Below are positions 1-22,270 of a stretch of DNA of 64,000 nucleotides, in pieces. The number at the start of each line of letters is the position of its first letter. The stretch's first letter is position 1. The notes beneath the pieces are model-generated. The model did no database searches, was not told where the DNA came from, and saw nothing but the letters and a program-made list of their open reading frames with translations. The DNA is taken from contig NW_025317351.1 in NCBI RefSeq assembly GCF_018873765.1, positions 124,001 through 188,000 on the forward strand, in the 5' to 3' direction. Both the position numbers and the translations under genes were made by a program. The stretch is from Telopea speciosissima. Taxonomy: Eukaryota; Streptophyta; Magnoliopsida; Proteales; Proteaceae.

Positions 1-59
1 TCGATCTCACTGTCTCAATTCCTTTCCCTCTCTCACTCTGCAACTTGGAACGGTGGTGC

Positions 60-1530
60 ATATCAGGACTGCAACCAACACACTAACCCCTCTCTTCTCC
101 ATAACATGTTGAGAGTAAAGGAAGGCCATAGAGATCTTTGAATGGGGATATAGTAACAACAAAACAGTAAGCAGAACATCCCTCTAACGTTTATTTGACA
201 GAAAAACCAGAGGTGCATGCTTTGGCTTGATATCACAGACGATGGCATGGTACTTTGTTGGCGACCAAGACGCCTAACTCCAACACGTACGTAATTCTCC
301 ATTCTCCCCCTACATAATCAGTCAATAAAATTACGAAGTATAACTACTCAAAATCCTGAAAATCGGAAAGCAGAGAGAAGAAGTGATCATATTAAAGCCC
401 TCTGCTCAAATACCTCAGGAAAACAAAAGCATCCCCTGTAACCAATCTCTTAGAAGTGACAAACATACTCCATCCCATTGTAAGCAAATGCCTGCGGGGT
501 TGACCTGGTACATTCAATTTGAAAGAGGTAGGACTCCTCAGTCATTTACATGTCCGCATACCACCATGTTTAATACTATTCAAAATGGAAAGTTTAGCTT
601 TCATTTGTTTGACAATGTATCTGAAATAACTTGGACATCAATAACTACAACCAACCAAAATGTAATTTTGCCATAAAAGAGAACAGAAAAACTCAACTGC
701 AGGTACCTCTGAAGATATGCTTAAATCGCCACTCGTAACCATGAAGATCCTTTGCAATCAATTTCTGGATTGGAGTTGACTGGTTCATATCCTTCAAGAA
801 AGAAAACCACTAAAGGAAGTGAAGTACATAGAAACAACAAAATAGAATGAGAAATACCAATGGAGGAAGGCATTCGTTAGCATGTTTCCGAACAACAGAG
901 AAGCCGCCATAAGTACTTGTATCAGATGCAGTTAAAATCTTGCAGAAAGAGTGAACAGTAGGTTACGGAGGTTCAGGAGTACTTGGATCAGGATTCCTGG
1001 GCTCACTTTGCAGTACAAATTATATCAGAAAACTTTAAATTAAATTTTCTCCATTTGCAACTTCACAATTGAATGGGTTGAAATTTGAAAAGTAAGTCTT
1101 ACATCTGCTTCAGGTTGTAAGGTAATTTGCGCATAAACTCCATTTGCTTCTTGTTCAGCCTGGAAATAATAGAAATCAACAAAAGTACAAAACACCCAAA
1201 GAGAGAAAGAGGCGAATTTACAAAGAGGAATGCCATCAACTCAATGTGTATAACACGACAAAGGATCTTCAAAGGAAGATTAAACATAGGAATTTGCTGA
1301 TTAAATTCCTGGTTCGTCGCAGCTTCTAGTTGTAAACATTCAAACGGGAAAAAATAAAGGGAATAAAAATTCATGTTAGATAGGAAGAAAGATCGAGGAA
1401 TAGAAAAAAATTTTTGATTCCAGAAACGAGAAACAGAAAAAAAAGAGCTCACATTTAAAAGAAATAGAGAATCACTCACTTGTTCCCACCATTACAATCT
1501 GTTTTTCTCCCTCAAAGTGGCCTTGGGATA
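60..1530 (-). pseudogene. ARF DNA-binding-domain exon block, copy 1
   Basis: Exons of an auxin response factor (ARF1/9/11-like) that encode the segment before and within the B3 DNA-binding domain; a whole ARF binds auxin-response elements. In gene order: an exon near 1230-1330 (NQQIPMFNLP, ILCRVIHIEL), one near 1107-1160 (VYAQITLQPEAD), one near 848-1016 ([20 protein letters not shown]), one near 706-790 ([17 protein letters not shown]), one near 400-517 ([17 protein letters not shown]) and one near 190-300 (RQQSTMPSSVISSQSMHL). Most exon edges carry GT/AG sites. Lesions: TAA in place of an arginine codon before VHSF, a lost acceptor (ACAG to ACAA) near 1327, and a 4-bp insertion near 286-295 that shifts frame. 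The first exon (WHACAG region) and the whole C-terminal half are missing. This is a gene fragment, not an ARF. Confidence 0.87.
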
Positions 1531-1894
1531 ACACTGGTTCCGATGTGAGTCAGCTCCGGGAGACATCAATTCCACACCTGAATCTGGTGACTTCTCCCAT
1601 AAAGGAACTGAGGATGCGTTAGCTCAATGGATAGTGACCTTCGTTTTCTCCTAACTGTGACTTCATCGATTTCAACCAGACTTCGACATGAATTCTGGGT
1701 TGAAAATAGTAAGAAGCGACGGCTTAAAGAGATGGGTGCTTCCGATAGATAGAAGGATCATCTATACTATGTAAACCCAACAGTAGTTTATACAAGGGGG
1801 AGGGGGGGGCGTGGTCTTAGGCGAAGGAGCGGGTGGTTGCAGCAGGGTGGAAGCAGTGGCGGAAGTAGAGGAGGTGAAGGTGAAGGTGAGGCCA

Positions 1895-2012
1895 GGAGTG
1901 GGGTTGAGAGGGTAAAATTGGAAATATCTTCGGTTTGGAGTAGGACTAAGTTCACAAGGAACCTCATATGTTACTTTTGAAATTTGAGGTACCTCCCAAG
2001 TACTTTAATCAA
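1895..2012 (-). repeat. Inverted-repeat arm right of ARF block (copy 1)
   Basis: Reverse complement of the sequence at about 8524-8690. Shared blocks read in that orientation include ATTTGATTAAAGTAC, GAGGTACCTCAA and CTTAGTCCTAC. Identity is roughly three quarters by eye. The matching left arm of this copy would lie before the window. Confidence 0.75.
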
Positions 2013-2477
2013 ATAATAGTATCCATGGTAAAGCATGTTCAAGCATGTTGAAAATTATCTAATTCACATTACCAATCATAATAATAGTATCTAACACAGG
2101 AACAACAGTTTACAACTAACCGGAGTTGAGAATTATCAAATTCACATTGCCAATCATAAGACAGAAAGGAAACTCCAATGTAAAACGCTGAACCAGCAAA
2201 ATTTGAGCCTGCCAAGTAAGCTTAAGCTTGGATTTAAGCTAAATAAAGAAGCACTATCATTCCCAATCTTGCCCAATGATCCATCTCAAGATCATTATCT
2301 CTGCTACACTCAATTATGCACATGTTTTTTTCATCTCCTAACATTGAGCTCCAAAAAGCAGTTCTGGTCTTAAATCCATAAAAGTTCACCTGGAACGGAA
2401 TACAGGCGTCAAATAATAATCCCTAAGTACCTCCTCTGCACCTGCCCAGTTCAAATTCCAATTGAAAACACCATCAC

Positions 2478-2480
<3 letters not shown>

Positions 2481-2516
<36 letters not shown>
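2481..2516. repeat. (TC)n microsatellite
   Basis: A run of about 18 TC units in the part of unit A that unit B has lost. It sits at the left edge of the 3.3-kb difference between the units, so it may have helped in the deletion or expansion. Confidence 0.9.
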
Positions 2517-19690: not shown

Positions 19691-19759
19691 CCTCTGTTAC
19701 GAATCGATCTCACTGTCTCTCTTCCTTTCCCTCTCTCACTCTGCAACTTGGAACAGTGG

Positions 19760-21230
19760 TTCATATCAGGACTGCAACCAACACACTAACCCCTCTCTTC
19801 TCCATGACATGGTGAGAGTAAAGGAAGGCCATAGAGATCTTTGAATGGGGATATAGTAACAACAAAACAGTAAGCAGAACATCCCTCTAACGTTTATTTG
19901 ACAGAAAAACCAGAGGTGCATGCTTTGGTTTGATATCACAGACGATGGCATGGTAGTTTGTTGACGACCAAGACTCCTAACTCCAACACGTACATAATTC
20001 TTCATTCTCCCCCCCTACATAATCAGTCAGTAAAAATACGAAGTATAACTACTCAAAATCCTGAAAATCGGAAAGCTGAGAGAAGATGTGATCATATTAA
20101 AGCCCTCTGCTCAAATACCTCAGGAAAACAAAAGCATCCCCTGAAACCAATCTCTTAGAAGTGACAAACGTACTCCATCCCATTGCAAGGAAATGCCTGC
20201 GGGATTGACCTGGTACATTCAATTTGAAAGAGGTAGGACTCCTCAGTCATTTACATGTCCGCATACCACCATATTTAATACTATTTCGAATGGAAAGTTT
20301 AGCTTTGATTTGCTTGACAATGTATCTGAAATAACTTGGACATCAATAACTACAACCAACAAACTGTAATTTTGCCATAAAAGAAAACAGAAAAACGCAA
20401 CTGCAGGTACCTCTGAAGATCTGCTTACATCGCCACTTATAACCATGAAGATCCTTTGCAGTCGATTTCTGGATTGGAGTTGGCTGGTTCATATCCTTCA
20501 AGAAAGAAAACCACTAAAGGAAGTGAAGTACATAGAAACAACAAAATAGAATGAGAAATACCAATGGAGGAAGGTATTCATTAGCATGTTTCCGAAGAAC
20601 AGAGAAGCCGCCATGAGTACTTGTATCAGTTGCACTTAAAATCTTGCAGAAAGAGTGAACGGTAAGTCGCGGAGGTTCAGGAGTGCTTGGATCAGGACTC
20701 CTAGGCTCACTTTGCTGTACAAATTGTATCAGAAAACTTTAAATTAAATTTTCTCCACTTGCAACTTCACAATTGAACGGGTTGAAATTTGAAAAGTAAG
20801 TCTTACATCTGCTTCAGGTTGTAAGGTAATTTGCGCATAAGTCATTTGTTTCTTGTTCAGCCTGGAAATAGTAGAAATCAACAAAAATACAAAACATCCA
20901 AAGAGAGAAAGAGAGGCGAGTTTACAAAGAGGAATGCCAGCAACTCAATGAGTATAACACGACAAAGGATCTTTAAAGGAAGATTAAACATAGGAATTTT
21001 CTGATTCAATTCTTTGTTCGTCGATGCTTCTAGCTGTAAAATTTCAAACGGGAAAAAATATAGGGGAAAAAAATTCATGTCAGATAGGAAGAAAGATCGA
21101 GGAAGAAAAAAGGAGTTTGATTCCAGAAACGAGAAACAGAAAAAAAAGAGCTCACATTTAAAAGAAATAGAGAATCACTCACTTGTTCCCACCATTACAA
21201 TCTGTTTTCCTCCCTCAAAGTGGCCTTGGG
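19760..21230 (-). pseudogene. ARF DNA-binding-domain exon block, copy 3
   Basis: Third ARF exon block, uninterrupted. Recognisable parts in gene order: NQKIPMFNLP near 20950-21040 (acceptor ACAG kept), YAQITLQPEAD near 20805-20860, the [15 protein letters not shown] exon near 20570-20720, AKDLHGYKWRCKQIFRG near 20405-20480, [14 protein letters not shown] near 20110-20215 and the SSVISNQSMHL part near 19915-20000. Three family-conserved residues in the [13 protein letters not shown] motif are changed (E to K, F to C, H to Q). The shared 4-bp frameshift lies near 19985-19995. It lacks the ARF first exon, the middle region and the PB1 end, so it cannot encode a working factor. Confidence 0.85.
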
Positions 21231-21605
21231 ATAACACCGGTTTCGATGTGAGTCAGCTCCGAGAGACATCAATTCCACACCTGAATCCGGTGACTTCTCC
21301 CATAAAGGAACTGAGGATGCTTCAGCTCAATGGATTGTGCCCTTCGTTTTCTCCTAACTTTGACTTCATCGATTTCAACCAGACTTCGACATTAATTCTG
21401 GGTTGAAAATAGTGAGAAGCGACGGCTTAAAGAGATGGGTGGTTCTGATAGATAGAAGGACCTTCTATACTACGTAAACCCAACACTAGTTTATACAAGG
21501 GGGTGGGAGGGGCGGTGGTCTAAGGGGATGGAGCGGGTGGTTGCAGCAGGGTGGAAGCAGTGGCAGAGGTGGAGGAGGTGAAGGTGAAGGTGAGGCCAGG
21601 AGTGG

Positions 21606-21722
21606 GGTTGAGAGGGTAAAATTGGAAATATCTTCGGTTTGGAGTAGACTAAGTTCACAAGGATCCTCATATGTTACTTTTGAAATTTGAGGTACCTCCC
21701 AATCCCAAGTACTTTAATCAAA
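21606..21722 (-). repeat. Inverted-repeat arm right of ARF block (copy 3)
   Basis: Inverted partner of 19516-19690. A 6-bp duplication (AATCCC) is seen inside this copy. Confidence 0.75.
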
Positions 21723-22139
21723 TAATAGTATCCATGGTAAAGCATGTTGAAGCATAATAATAGTATCTAACACAGGAACAACAGTTTGCACCTAACCTGA
21801 ATAGAGAATTATCTAATTCACATTGCCAATCATAAGACAGAAAGGAAACTCCAATGTAAAACGTTGAACCAGCCAAATTTGAGCCTGCCAGGTAAGCTTA
21901 TGCTTGGATTTAAGCTAAGTAAAGAAGCACTATCATTCCCAATCTTGCCCAATCATCCATCTCAAGATCATTATCTCTACTACACTCAATTATGGACATG
22001 TTTTTTTCATCTCCTAACATTGAGCTCCGAAAAGCAGTGCTGGTCTTAAATCCATAAAAGTTCACCTTCAGCTTGAATGGAATACAGCCATCAAATAATA
22101 ATCCCAAAGTTCCTCCTCTGCACCTGCCCAGTTCAAATT

Positions 22140-22270
22140 CCAATTGAAAACACCATCACCCTTTTCTTGTAGCTGCTCCAACTTTGGCCATCCTTCATCA
22201 TTCCCAACTGGACTTGGCCATCCTTCATCATTCTGCTTGTAGCTGCTCCAACTTTGCCAGTCCATGAAGG
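22140..22270 (-). repeat. Short internal duplication at the edge of unit C
   Basis: Two near-copies each of cttgtagctgctccaacttt and ggccatccttcatcattc are interleaved here. The minus strand is open and tryptophan-rich (DEGWPSPVGNDEGWPKLEQL). This is the place where unit C departs from units A and B. No family is recognised. Confidence 0.6.

Follow-up and report, generated by a model that had tools for sequence, protein, structure and literature searches.

The analysed window, a stretch of 64,000 nucleotides from Telopea speciosissima (contig NW_025317351.1, here C15), contains within positions 1-22161 three tandem units with a pairwise identity of 93.2-94.6% in unit-versus-unit alignment, corresponding to a mutual divergence of 5.4-6.8% (Table 1). 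The units carry pieces of ARF, PIP, MetRS and RAE1 genes, all on the minus strand. A six-frame Pfam scan of positions 1-9351 (E up to 0.1) identified only MIP, B3 and weak WD40 domains and none on the plus strand, and the minus strand of positions 22000-31990 was likewise free of Pfam domains. The neighbor of the array is, by our own reading only, a bHLH-like gene. The unit of about 8.7 kb described in the initial annotation applies to unit A, whose left Mutator-like element (MULE) end lies near C15:123820, beyond the window, but its length is not uniform, as unit B lacks an equivalent of positions 2484-5783 and is lengthened by a copia-type retrotransposon.

Table 1. Positions of the repeat units, captured gene pieces and transposon-derived features in the window (TIR, terminal inverted repeat).
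Feature	Position	Strand	Description
Unit A	1..8703	-	Long form, 8.7 kb, truncated at left edge of window; self-BLAST and genome maps
Unit B	8704..19703	-	Short form, 5.4 kb without retrotransposon; self-BLAST
Unit C	19704..22161	-	Incomplete final unit; array terminates at 22161
A-specific segment	2484..5783	-	3.3 kb; equivalent absent from unit B
ARF1-like coding matches, unit A	146..1359	-	Protein matches
Captured ARF piece, unit C	19850..21189	-	DNA-binding-domain exons with introns; 88% to C6:67077001-67080000
Right TIR of ARF MULE, copy in A	1895..2015	.	Inverted-repeat alignment
Left TIR of ARF MULE, copy in B	8506..8666	.	Outer end GGGTAAATTACATG intact
Right TIR of ARF MULE, copy in B	16294..16414	.	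Outer ~35 bp degenerate
Left TIR of ARF MULE, copy in C	19506..19666	.	Inverted-repeat alignment and genome TIR search
Right TIR of ARF MULE, copy in C	21599..21724	.	Outer end degenerate
RAE1 module 1, unit A	3778..3882	-	
RAE1 module 2, unit A	5925..6155	-	Rearranged
PIP piece, unit A	6223..6762	-	Exon 1 end, intron 1, exon 2, intron 2 start
Templated filler, MetRS-PIP junction	6763..6783	-	Duplicate of a MetRS exon stretch
MetRS piece, unit A	6784..7021	-	238 bp, internal to exon 1; organellar-type MetRS at C1:17525351-17525950
RAE1 module 3, unit A	7051..7294	-	
RAE1 module 4, unit A	7625..8068	-	5' end, exon 1 remnant, intron 1, exon 2, part of intron 2
PIP piece, unit B	17229..17776	-	Borders set by offset from unit A
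MetRS piece, unit B	17800..18035	-	DNA alignment to source
Copia-type LTR retrotransposon	9352..15086	-	5.7 kb, inside unit B

Protein matches and DNA alignments to the sources bear out the earlier proposal that at least four unrelated genes contributed. The ARF exons are colinear with ARF1 residues 41 to about 260 (window 1359 down to about 146) and match a solved protein with E-values down to 1.9e-32, while the PIP exon pair reaches 7.6e-45; the MetRS and RAE1 pieces were verified through DNA alignment with their sources. Because of these E-values and because the introns align to the source genes, chance matches are excluded. A genome-wide search placed the ARF source on C6 (88% over 1315 columns; the parent was confirmed by B3 and PF06507 and extends into this ARF ancillary domain), the PIP source at C3:22871401-22872000 (83%), and the sources of MetRS (an organellar-type gene at 17.5 Mb, 87%) and RAE1 (7.2 Mb, about 81%) at two separate places on C1. 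Complete parental genes are therefore not directly adjacent to each other. The same-strand orientation, the retention of introns and the later tandem duplication proposed earlier likewise hold. Since the introns of the ARF, PIP and RAE1 pieces align to the parent genes, copying occurred at the DNA level, and processed retrocopies were ruled out.

Unit A contains four RAE1 modules. The best source for module 4 is C1:7227301-7228700 (81.8%); a C11 RAE1 locus is nearer over 113 exon-bearing columns (85.8%) but falls to 66.9% over the full stretch. Modules 3 and 4 have 10 derived changes in common, with 16 and 12 unique ones, respectively, and as their derived changes are thus only partly common, the modules may stem from repeated capture. 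Positions 3999-5838 of unit A read as pieces of a gene, the "coiled-coil gene" of the initial annotation, and are 87% identical to C1:7305449-7307300, the best relative. Candidate parents are C1:7305824 and, more weakly, C1:20917274. A further relative of window positions 2195-3608, at C6:68936037-68937502, could be either source or copy, and its two edge stretches have no inverted repeat longer than 11 bp between them. The located sources cover the ARF, PIP, MetRS and RAE1 pieces, as distinct from the coiled-coil piece and positions 2031-2480.

Rather than existing in two or three copies, as first assumed, the mosaic forms a family distributed over C15, C17 and C1. Outside aquaporin genes, the PIP piece was found in 125 scored stretches of the 823-Mb genome (sorted by hand), including scattered copies at C2:23690240 and C4:25454287. 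On C1, the unit measures 4.1 kb and contains another RAE1 exon, with a scattered copy at C1:51953880-51957073. Arrays on C171 and C79 carry a different MetRS exon together with pieces of the "coiled-coil" gene.

Between positions 1 and 23000, the only inverted repeats detected (E < 0.1, CT/GA runs aside) were those bracketing the ARF piece. These TIRs align over 73-78 columns at 77-83% across the three units, with gapped extension to 121-140 columns, and their family has the terminal word GGGTAAATTACATGTAAGGTGCCC. No transposase gene lies between them according to the six-frame scan of 1-9351. At a dispersed ARF copy on C7, a perfect 9-bp target duplication, TAAAAATTA, was found on either side. 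Thus, the ARF part is a Pack-MULE, and the suspected combination of MULE TIRs and 9-bp duplication was recovered for this part. Another element with these TIRs (C9:18743129-18744724) has 9-bp flanks identical at 8/9 positions, and an ARF copy at C6:56.5 Mb shows one TIR end, the other not being found in the piece examined. In the window itself, the right outer end is degenerate and no target duplication is visible at the ARF MULE copies, so that the element is recognizable only via its relatives.

The MetRS/PIP/RAE1 part is located outside the ARF MULE TIRs. Its MetRS-PIP joint contains a 24-nt back-copied MetRS stretch which begins at a GCCGCC microhomology, as expected if a repair process or replication fork switches template. 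Of 20 aligned copies from C15, C17 and C1, 19 retain this filler; the exception, C15_116467, is rearranged at the joint. The filler would accordingly be read from its sequence as a template-switch scar of a single founding event. Another class of copies, in which the identical PIP edge is fused to a different partner, is not explained by the scheme proposed below.

Could the mosaic be a family of functional chimeric genes that selection has amplified? PIP exon 2 is stop-free in 16/20 copies, the joint is conserved in 19/20, and pooled dN/dS was 0.77-0.78 (0.51 for 21 codons of PIP exon 1), which, taken alone, would allow weak past constraint. However, several of the stop-free copies have frameshifting gaps, 11 of 20 copies carry a stop codon within the MetRS piece, and among 19 of the 20 copies pairwise divergence was similar over codon positions 1, 2 and 3, both for MetRS (0.095/0.082/0.077) and for PIP exon 2 (0.086/0.099/0.085), and in the PIP intron (0.082). 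In addition, relative to unit A, 18 of the 19 other copies have an extra base near the MetRS-PIP joint, and the in-frame fusion of unit A is therefore private to that unit. A functional gene was rejected on the codon-position divergence and the stops and is considered very unlikely. The flat divergence, the stops and the frameshifts indicate instead that the copies decay neutrally and that the mosaic is non-functional.

We favor, with a probability of about 0.75, a non-functional mosaic repeat built stepwise. A Mutator-like element holds part of the 5' half of the C6 ARF gene, introns included, between its TIRs and has transposed at least once, as shown by the C7 copy, which is flanked by a 9-bp target duplication of its own. 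Elsewhere, short stretches of PIP (C3), MetRS (C1) and RAE1 (C1) lie joined in the same orientation, probably as a result of template switching. The ARF MULE would have been united with this MetRS/PIP/RAE1 mosaic later, an order based on two 10-kb stretches (C1:1-10000 and C15:290001-300000, one of them ending near the mosaic) in which MetRS-PIP is present and the ARF match absent. The pattern of arrays suggests that the joint unit and its flanking DNA were then amplified via tandem and segmental duplication, presumably through unequal exchange, with deletions at joints that recur (e.g., 2483/5784). The copies decay neutrally, as described above, and one of them later gained the copia element. 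The latter is young and was inserted into unit B after the units had separated: over 284 compared sites, its two LTRs (9352-9636 and 14801-15086) show 5 differences, AATTTT flanks both edges, and the matching site is empty in units A and C.

As an alternative to this stepwise origin, the whole mosaic might consist of one or two Pack-MULEs, with a MetRS/PIP/RAE1 MULE that lost its ends adjoining the ARF MULE. The common orientation, short pieces, retained introns and sources on other chromosomes resemble Pack-MULEs as characterized in the relevant sections of PMC8277862, and scattered copies do exist (on C2, on C4 and at 51.95 Mb on C1). However, C1:1-10000 contains no inverted repeats (E up to 0.01), and those of C15:290001-300000, CT/GA runs aside, amount to two pairs, of 32 bp and 23 bp, both lying outside the mosaic. 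Both match edges of the C1 51.95-Mb copy lack an inverted repeat or a GGGTAAATT end, and at the C2 copy, where one edge was read, an inverted repeat is absent within 2.2 kb. These edge reads slightly lowered our estimate for an all-MULE origin, which is considered unlikely. TIRs and 9-bp duplications were unseen at the edges of the MetRS/PIP/RAE1 part in the copies examined, which could be truncated. MULE capture accounts for the ARF part; a single capture element for all genes finds no support.

A common strand for all pieces and a head-to-tail arrangement of units, as seen here, are typical of Helitrons, which had been named as the other possible capturing element; under this reading, the tandem copies would stem from rolling-circle copying. 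The TIRs and 9-bp target duplication of the ARF part are foreign to Helitrons, however, and a scan for 3' ends (CTRR plus T after a perfect, GC-bearing stem no shorter than 6 bp) identified no site in window positions 1-8800 and two in C1:5001-10000, both within the PIP piece; this origin is highly improbable. The scan replaced a search for CTRR-TC words, whose matches were scattered and had no chance estimate. A misjoining of unrelated loci in unplaced contigs, for which the sub-chromosomal size of C15 (764 kb) might speak, is hardly credible: the MetRS-PIP joint occurs on C15, on C17 and on C1, a contig of 87.8 Mb, in copies that have diverged from one another, and the divergence between units far exceeds the heterozygosity of 0.76% given for Telopea in the consulted part of PMC13080361.

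Complex satellites and tandem segmental duplications of gene fragments consist of clustered, head-to-tail units of 4-9 kb which are reshaped by recurrent deletions. The present arrays share these properties, but their unit is made up of fragments that can be traced to four or more distinct host genes. With Pack-MULEs from plants such as rice, as portrayed in the sections of PMC13317346 considered here, the family shares Mutator-type TIRs, the 9-bp duplication at a dispersed copy and an intron-bearing host gene piece from another chromosome at several locations; in contrast, the Pack-MULE is here one block of a bigger tandem unit amplified in arrays, and the remaining gene pieces sit outside its ends. 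Microhomology-based template switching has also been proposed for chimeric capture elements, the multicopy Pack-TIRs (FoSTeST), one locus of which is likewise tandemly duplicated, according to the pertinent part of PMC8277862, whereas the scar described here lies at a joint near which no TIR was found and the arrays are far larger.

It is tempting, though tentative, to regard the family as a "mosaic satellite," an expanding type of locus in which template switching during replication repeatedly stitches sense 5' parts of host genes into tandem units, absorbs whole Pack-MULEs and shuffles the pieces anew. If so, the 4.1-kb unit of C1 and the C171 and C79 arrays would be sister products of one process, and gene-fragment satellites would have a distinct route of origin that makes transposon ends unnecessary. 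Models of gap filling and of fork stalling with template switching compete to explain the capture and joining of gene pieces, as outlined in part of PMC8277862. The family offers a clean case, with located sources, an order of events readable from the nesting and a templated insertion kept in many copies. For genome annotation, such arrays are a hazard, as numerous spurious "genes" for ARF, aquaporin, RAE1 and MetRS can be called in them.

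Self-comparison of the window revealed three mosaic units arranged head-to-tail, whose shared parts are 93.2-94.6% identical. Units A and B both contain the stretches 1-2483 and 5784-8703 (window coordinates of unit A), and the segment 2484-5783 occurs in A alone. The repeat of about 8.7 kb described in the initial annotation is the long form of the unit, and a second, short form measures 5.4 kb. The two LTRs of the copia-type element in unit B show 5 differences in 284 compared sites; the element has AATTTT at both edges, and its site is empty in units A and C, indicating insertion after the units had split. 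It is young and offers a useful clock, younger than the unit split.

Features of the window and related arrays on contig C1 of the same genome
Feature	Position	Strand	Basis or remark
Unit A	1-8703		Self-comparison; start cut by window edge
Unit B	8704-19703		Self-comparison
Unit C	19704-22161		Self-comparison
Copia-type LTR retrotransposon in unit B	9352-15086	minus	RVT_2, GAG-pre-integrase and SH3-like domains
Candidate bHLH transcription factor gene	22513-24700	minus	Reads like such a gene; adjoins array end
Long open frame	32992-34485	minus	Both ribosomal protein L4 domains (PF00573, PF14374)
Tandem array, ~4.1-kb unit	C1:8638438-8652414
Tandem array, ~4.1-kb unit	C1:10036900-10046800
Tandem array, ~4.1-kb unit	C1:14221837-14231730

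A six-frame Pfam scan of 1-9351 (E up to 0.1) returned only MIP, B3 and weak WD40 matches, all on the minus strand, with no match on the plus strand. Comparison with solved proteins placed residues 41 to about 260 of the auxin response factor ARF1, in order, along the stretch running from 1359 to about 146, and an aquaporin (PIP) match at about 6678-6292. The genome comprises 822,943,500 bases in 1287 contigs, and the window corresponds to C15:124001-188000. The ARF1-like source gene, C6:67077001-67080000, aligns at 88% along 1315 columns and at 93% along a further 60 bp, and extends beyond the captured stretch into the ARF ancillary domain PF06507. The PIP piece runs from the last part of exon 1 through intron 1 and exon 2 into the beginning of intron 2 and matches C3:22871401-22872000 (83% over 544 columns). 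Among the real PIP genes this locus ranked first in protein identity (84%), and it was the only one aligned as DNA. The MetRS piece is internal to the first exon of a gene at C1:17.525 Mb (87.4% over 238 columns), which we read as organellar-type. For RAE1, the best of three loci tried was C1:7.228 Mb (80.6% over 299 columns), aligned across exon 2 and the two adjoining introns (1 and 2), and a remnant of exon 1 is also present; a C11 locus reached 85.8% close to the exon (113 columns), and in a longer alignment 66.9% versus 81.8% for C1. These individual matches place the sources on three contigs, C6, C3 and C1, the last with two widely separated loci, bearing out the initial annotation of the mosaic as fragments of unrelated genes. 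Further partial RAE1-like loci were noted (C8:52016396-52017565, C1:68009858-68017892 and C11:39699471-39717313), and in the Telopea genome this gene appears to be readily duplicated in fragments.

The initial annotation had proposed gene capture by a Pack-MULE or a Helitron. CT/GA runs aside, the only inverted repeats in 1-23000 at E <0.1 flank the ARF piece in each of the three units, as terminal inverted repeats (TIRs) of 73-78 columns at 77-83%, extendable with gaps to 121-140 columns. Copies of this element also occur outside the arrays (best 40 of 158 candidates scored); the one at C7:56560773-56562495 has the ends GGGTA...TTAACCC and TAAAAATTA on both flanks, a perfect 9-bp duplication. 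The TIR alone has at least 42 matches in the genome (best 40 of 132 candidates scored), and a TIR pair at C9:18743129-18744724 is flanked by TTGAAACAA and TTGAAACAG, identical at 8/9 positions. Long TIRs and nine-bp duplications are the mark of Mutator-like elements (MULEs), and the ARF piece, judged by its termini, is classified as a Pack-MULE. In the window copies, the left outer end is intact, the right end is degenerate over its outer ~35 bp, and no target duplication is readable.

The MetRS, PIP and RAE1 pieces sit between successive MULE copies. Two fetched stretches, C1:1-10000 and C15:290001-300000, contain the MetRS-PIP joint and no ARF match, which suggests that the joint predates the union with the MULE. 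The former was free of inverted repeats at E ≤0.01; apart from CT/GA runs, the latter had only two pairs, of 32 and 23 bp, both outside the mosaic. Neither an inverted repeat nor a MULE-type end was detected at either match edge of a scattered copy (C1:51.954-51.957 Mb), and a copy at C2:23.69 Mb, where one edge was reached, lay in a 2.2-kb stretch that had no inverted repeats even at E ≤1. The scan for a Helitron 3' end likewise gave none in window 1-8800, and in C1:5001-10000 just two sites, both within the PIP piece. The start of C1 carries a ~75-bp G-rich tandem repeat (C1:93-319), a few kb from the mosaic pieces at 5.2-9.6 kb, with no telomere repeats in the first 330 bases.

The joint itself carries a scar. 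The MetRS piece ends in ...ATTGCCGCCG, followed by CCAAGAACAATCCACCTCTG and then PIP; CCAAGAACAATCCACCTCTG and the preceding bases repeat GCCGCCAAGAACAATCCACCTCTG, which lies ~100 bp further upstream in that MetRS exon, and in the C1 copy the back-copied stretch equals its source at 24/24 bases (counted by eye). Among 20 aligned copies (out of 25 rows, five short ones left out), the scar is present with point changes in 19, from C15, C17 and C1; the exception, C15_116467, is rearranged there. Given this shared scar, the joint arose once. Template switching during repair or replication would be expected to leave such a backward jump at a short shared word, and the joint may have been made in this way. 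Fork stalling and template switching is a proposed model (PMC8277862), and Pack-MULEs, Pack-CACTA and template-switching models are covered in PMC13317346 and PMC8277862. No report of the ARF/MetRS/PIP/RAE1 combination was recognised in the literature searched, whose coverage excludes most subscription journals. Other copies, including C2:23689201-23691400 and C17:444671-445500, share the PIP edge at window position 6763; a second partner, 5546-5913 or 5784-5877, can replace MetRS at this edge. Such copies form another mosaic class, with one edge and two partners.

Module maps of the fetched stretches showed recurrent joints (e.g., 2483/5784), mostly with a 9-bp overlap, units in both the long and the short form, and RAE1 modules with deletions between them, all of which unequal exchange would yield. 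The flank of unit C (22162-24700) has a 94% match adjoining an array end on C17, so that flanking DNA was duplicated along with the array; the candidate bHLH gene, for which Pfam gave no match in three frames, lies in this duplicated flank. When the best 150 of 246 candidates from a genome search with the PIP-piece protein were scored, 17 had a C-terminal aquaporin match no more than 3 kb away and 133 had none so close; setting aside eight low-identity matches, perhaps other aquaporins, leaves at least 125 in the genome. The ~4.1-kb units on C1 combine a different RAE1 exon (residues 254-281) with PIP, partly with the unknown-gene piece. At C171:29613-69332 and C79:4407-23449, a different MetRS exon (PF09334 positions 80-133) forms clusters, with six and two matches; the same contigs carry pieces of the unknown gene seen at window 3900-5740, and these clusters are possibly a third mosaic array.

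Pooled over the 20 copies, dN/dS was 0.78 for MetRS, 0.51 for PIP exon 1 (21 codons) and 0.77 for PIP exon 2. Divergence at codon positions 1/2/3 (19 copies, C15_116467 dropped) was 0.095/0.082/0.077, 0.104/0.079/0.119 and 0.086/0.099/0.085, respectively, and thus flat overall, with 0.082 in the PIP intron and 0.089 in the downstream stretch. Stops interrupt the MetRS piece in 11/20 copies and PIP exon 2 in 4/20. A single extra base near the joint sets 18 of the other 19 copies apart from unit A, and the in-frame MetRS-PIP fusion is therefore private to A. From the flat divergence, the stops and this private fusion, we concluded that the mosaic copies are probably undergoing neutral decay.
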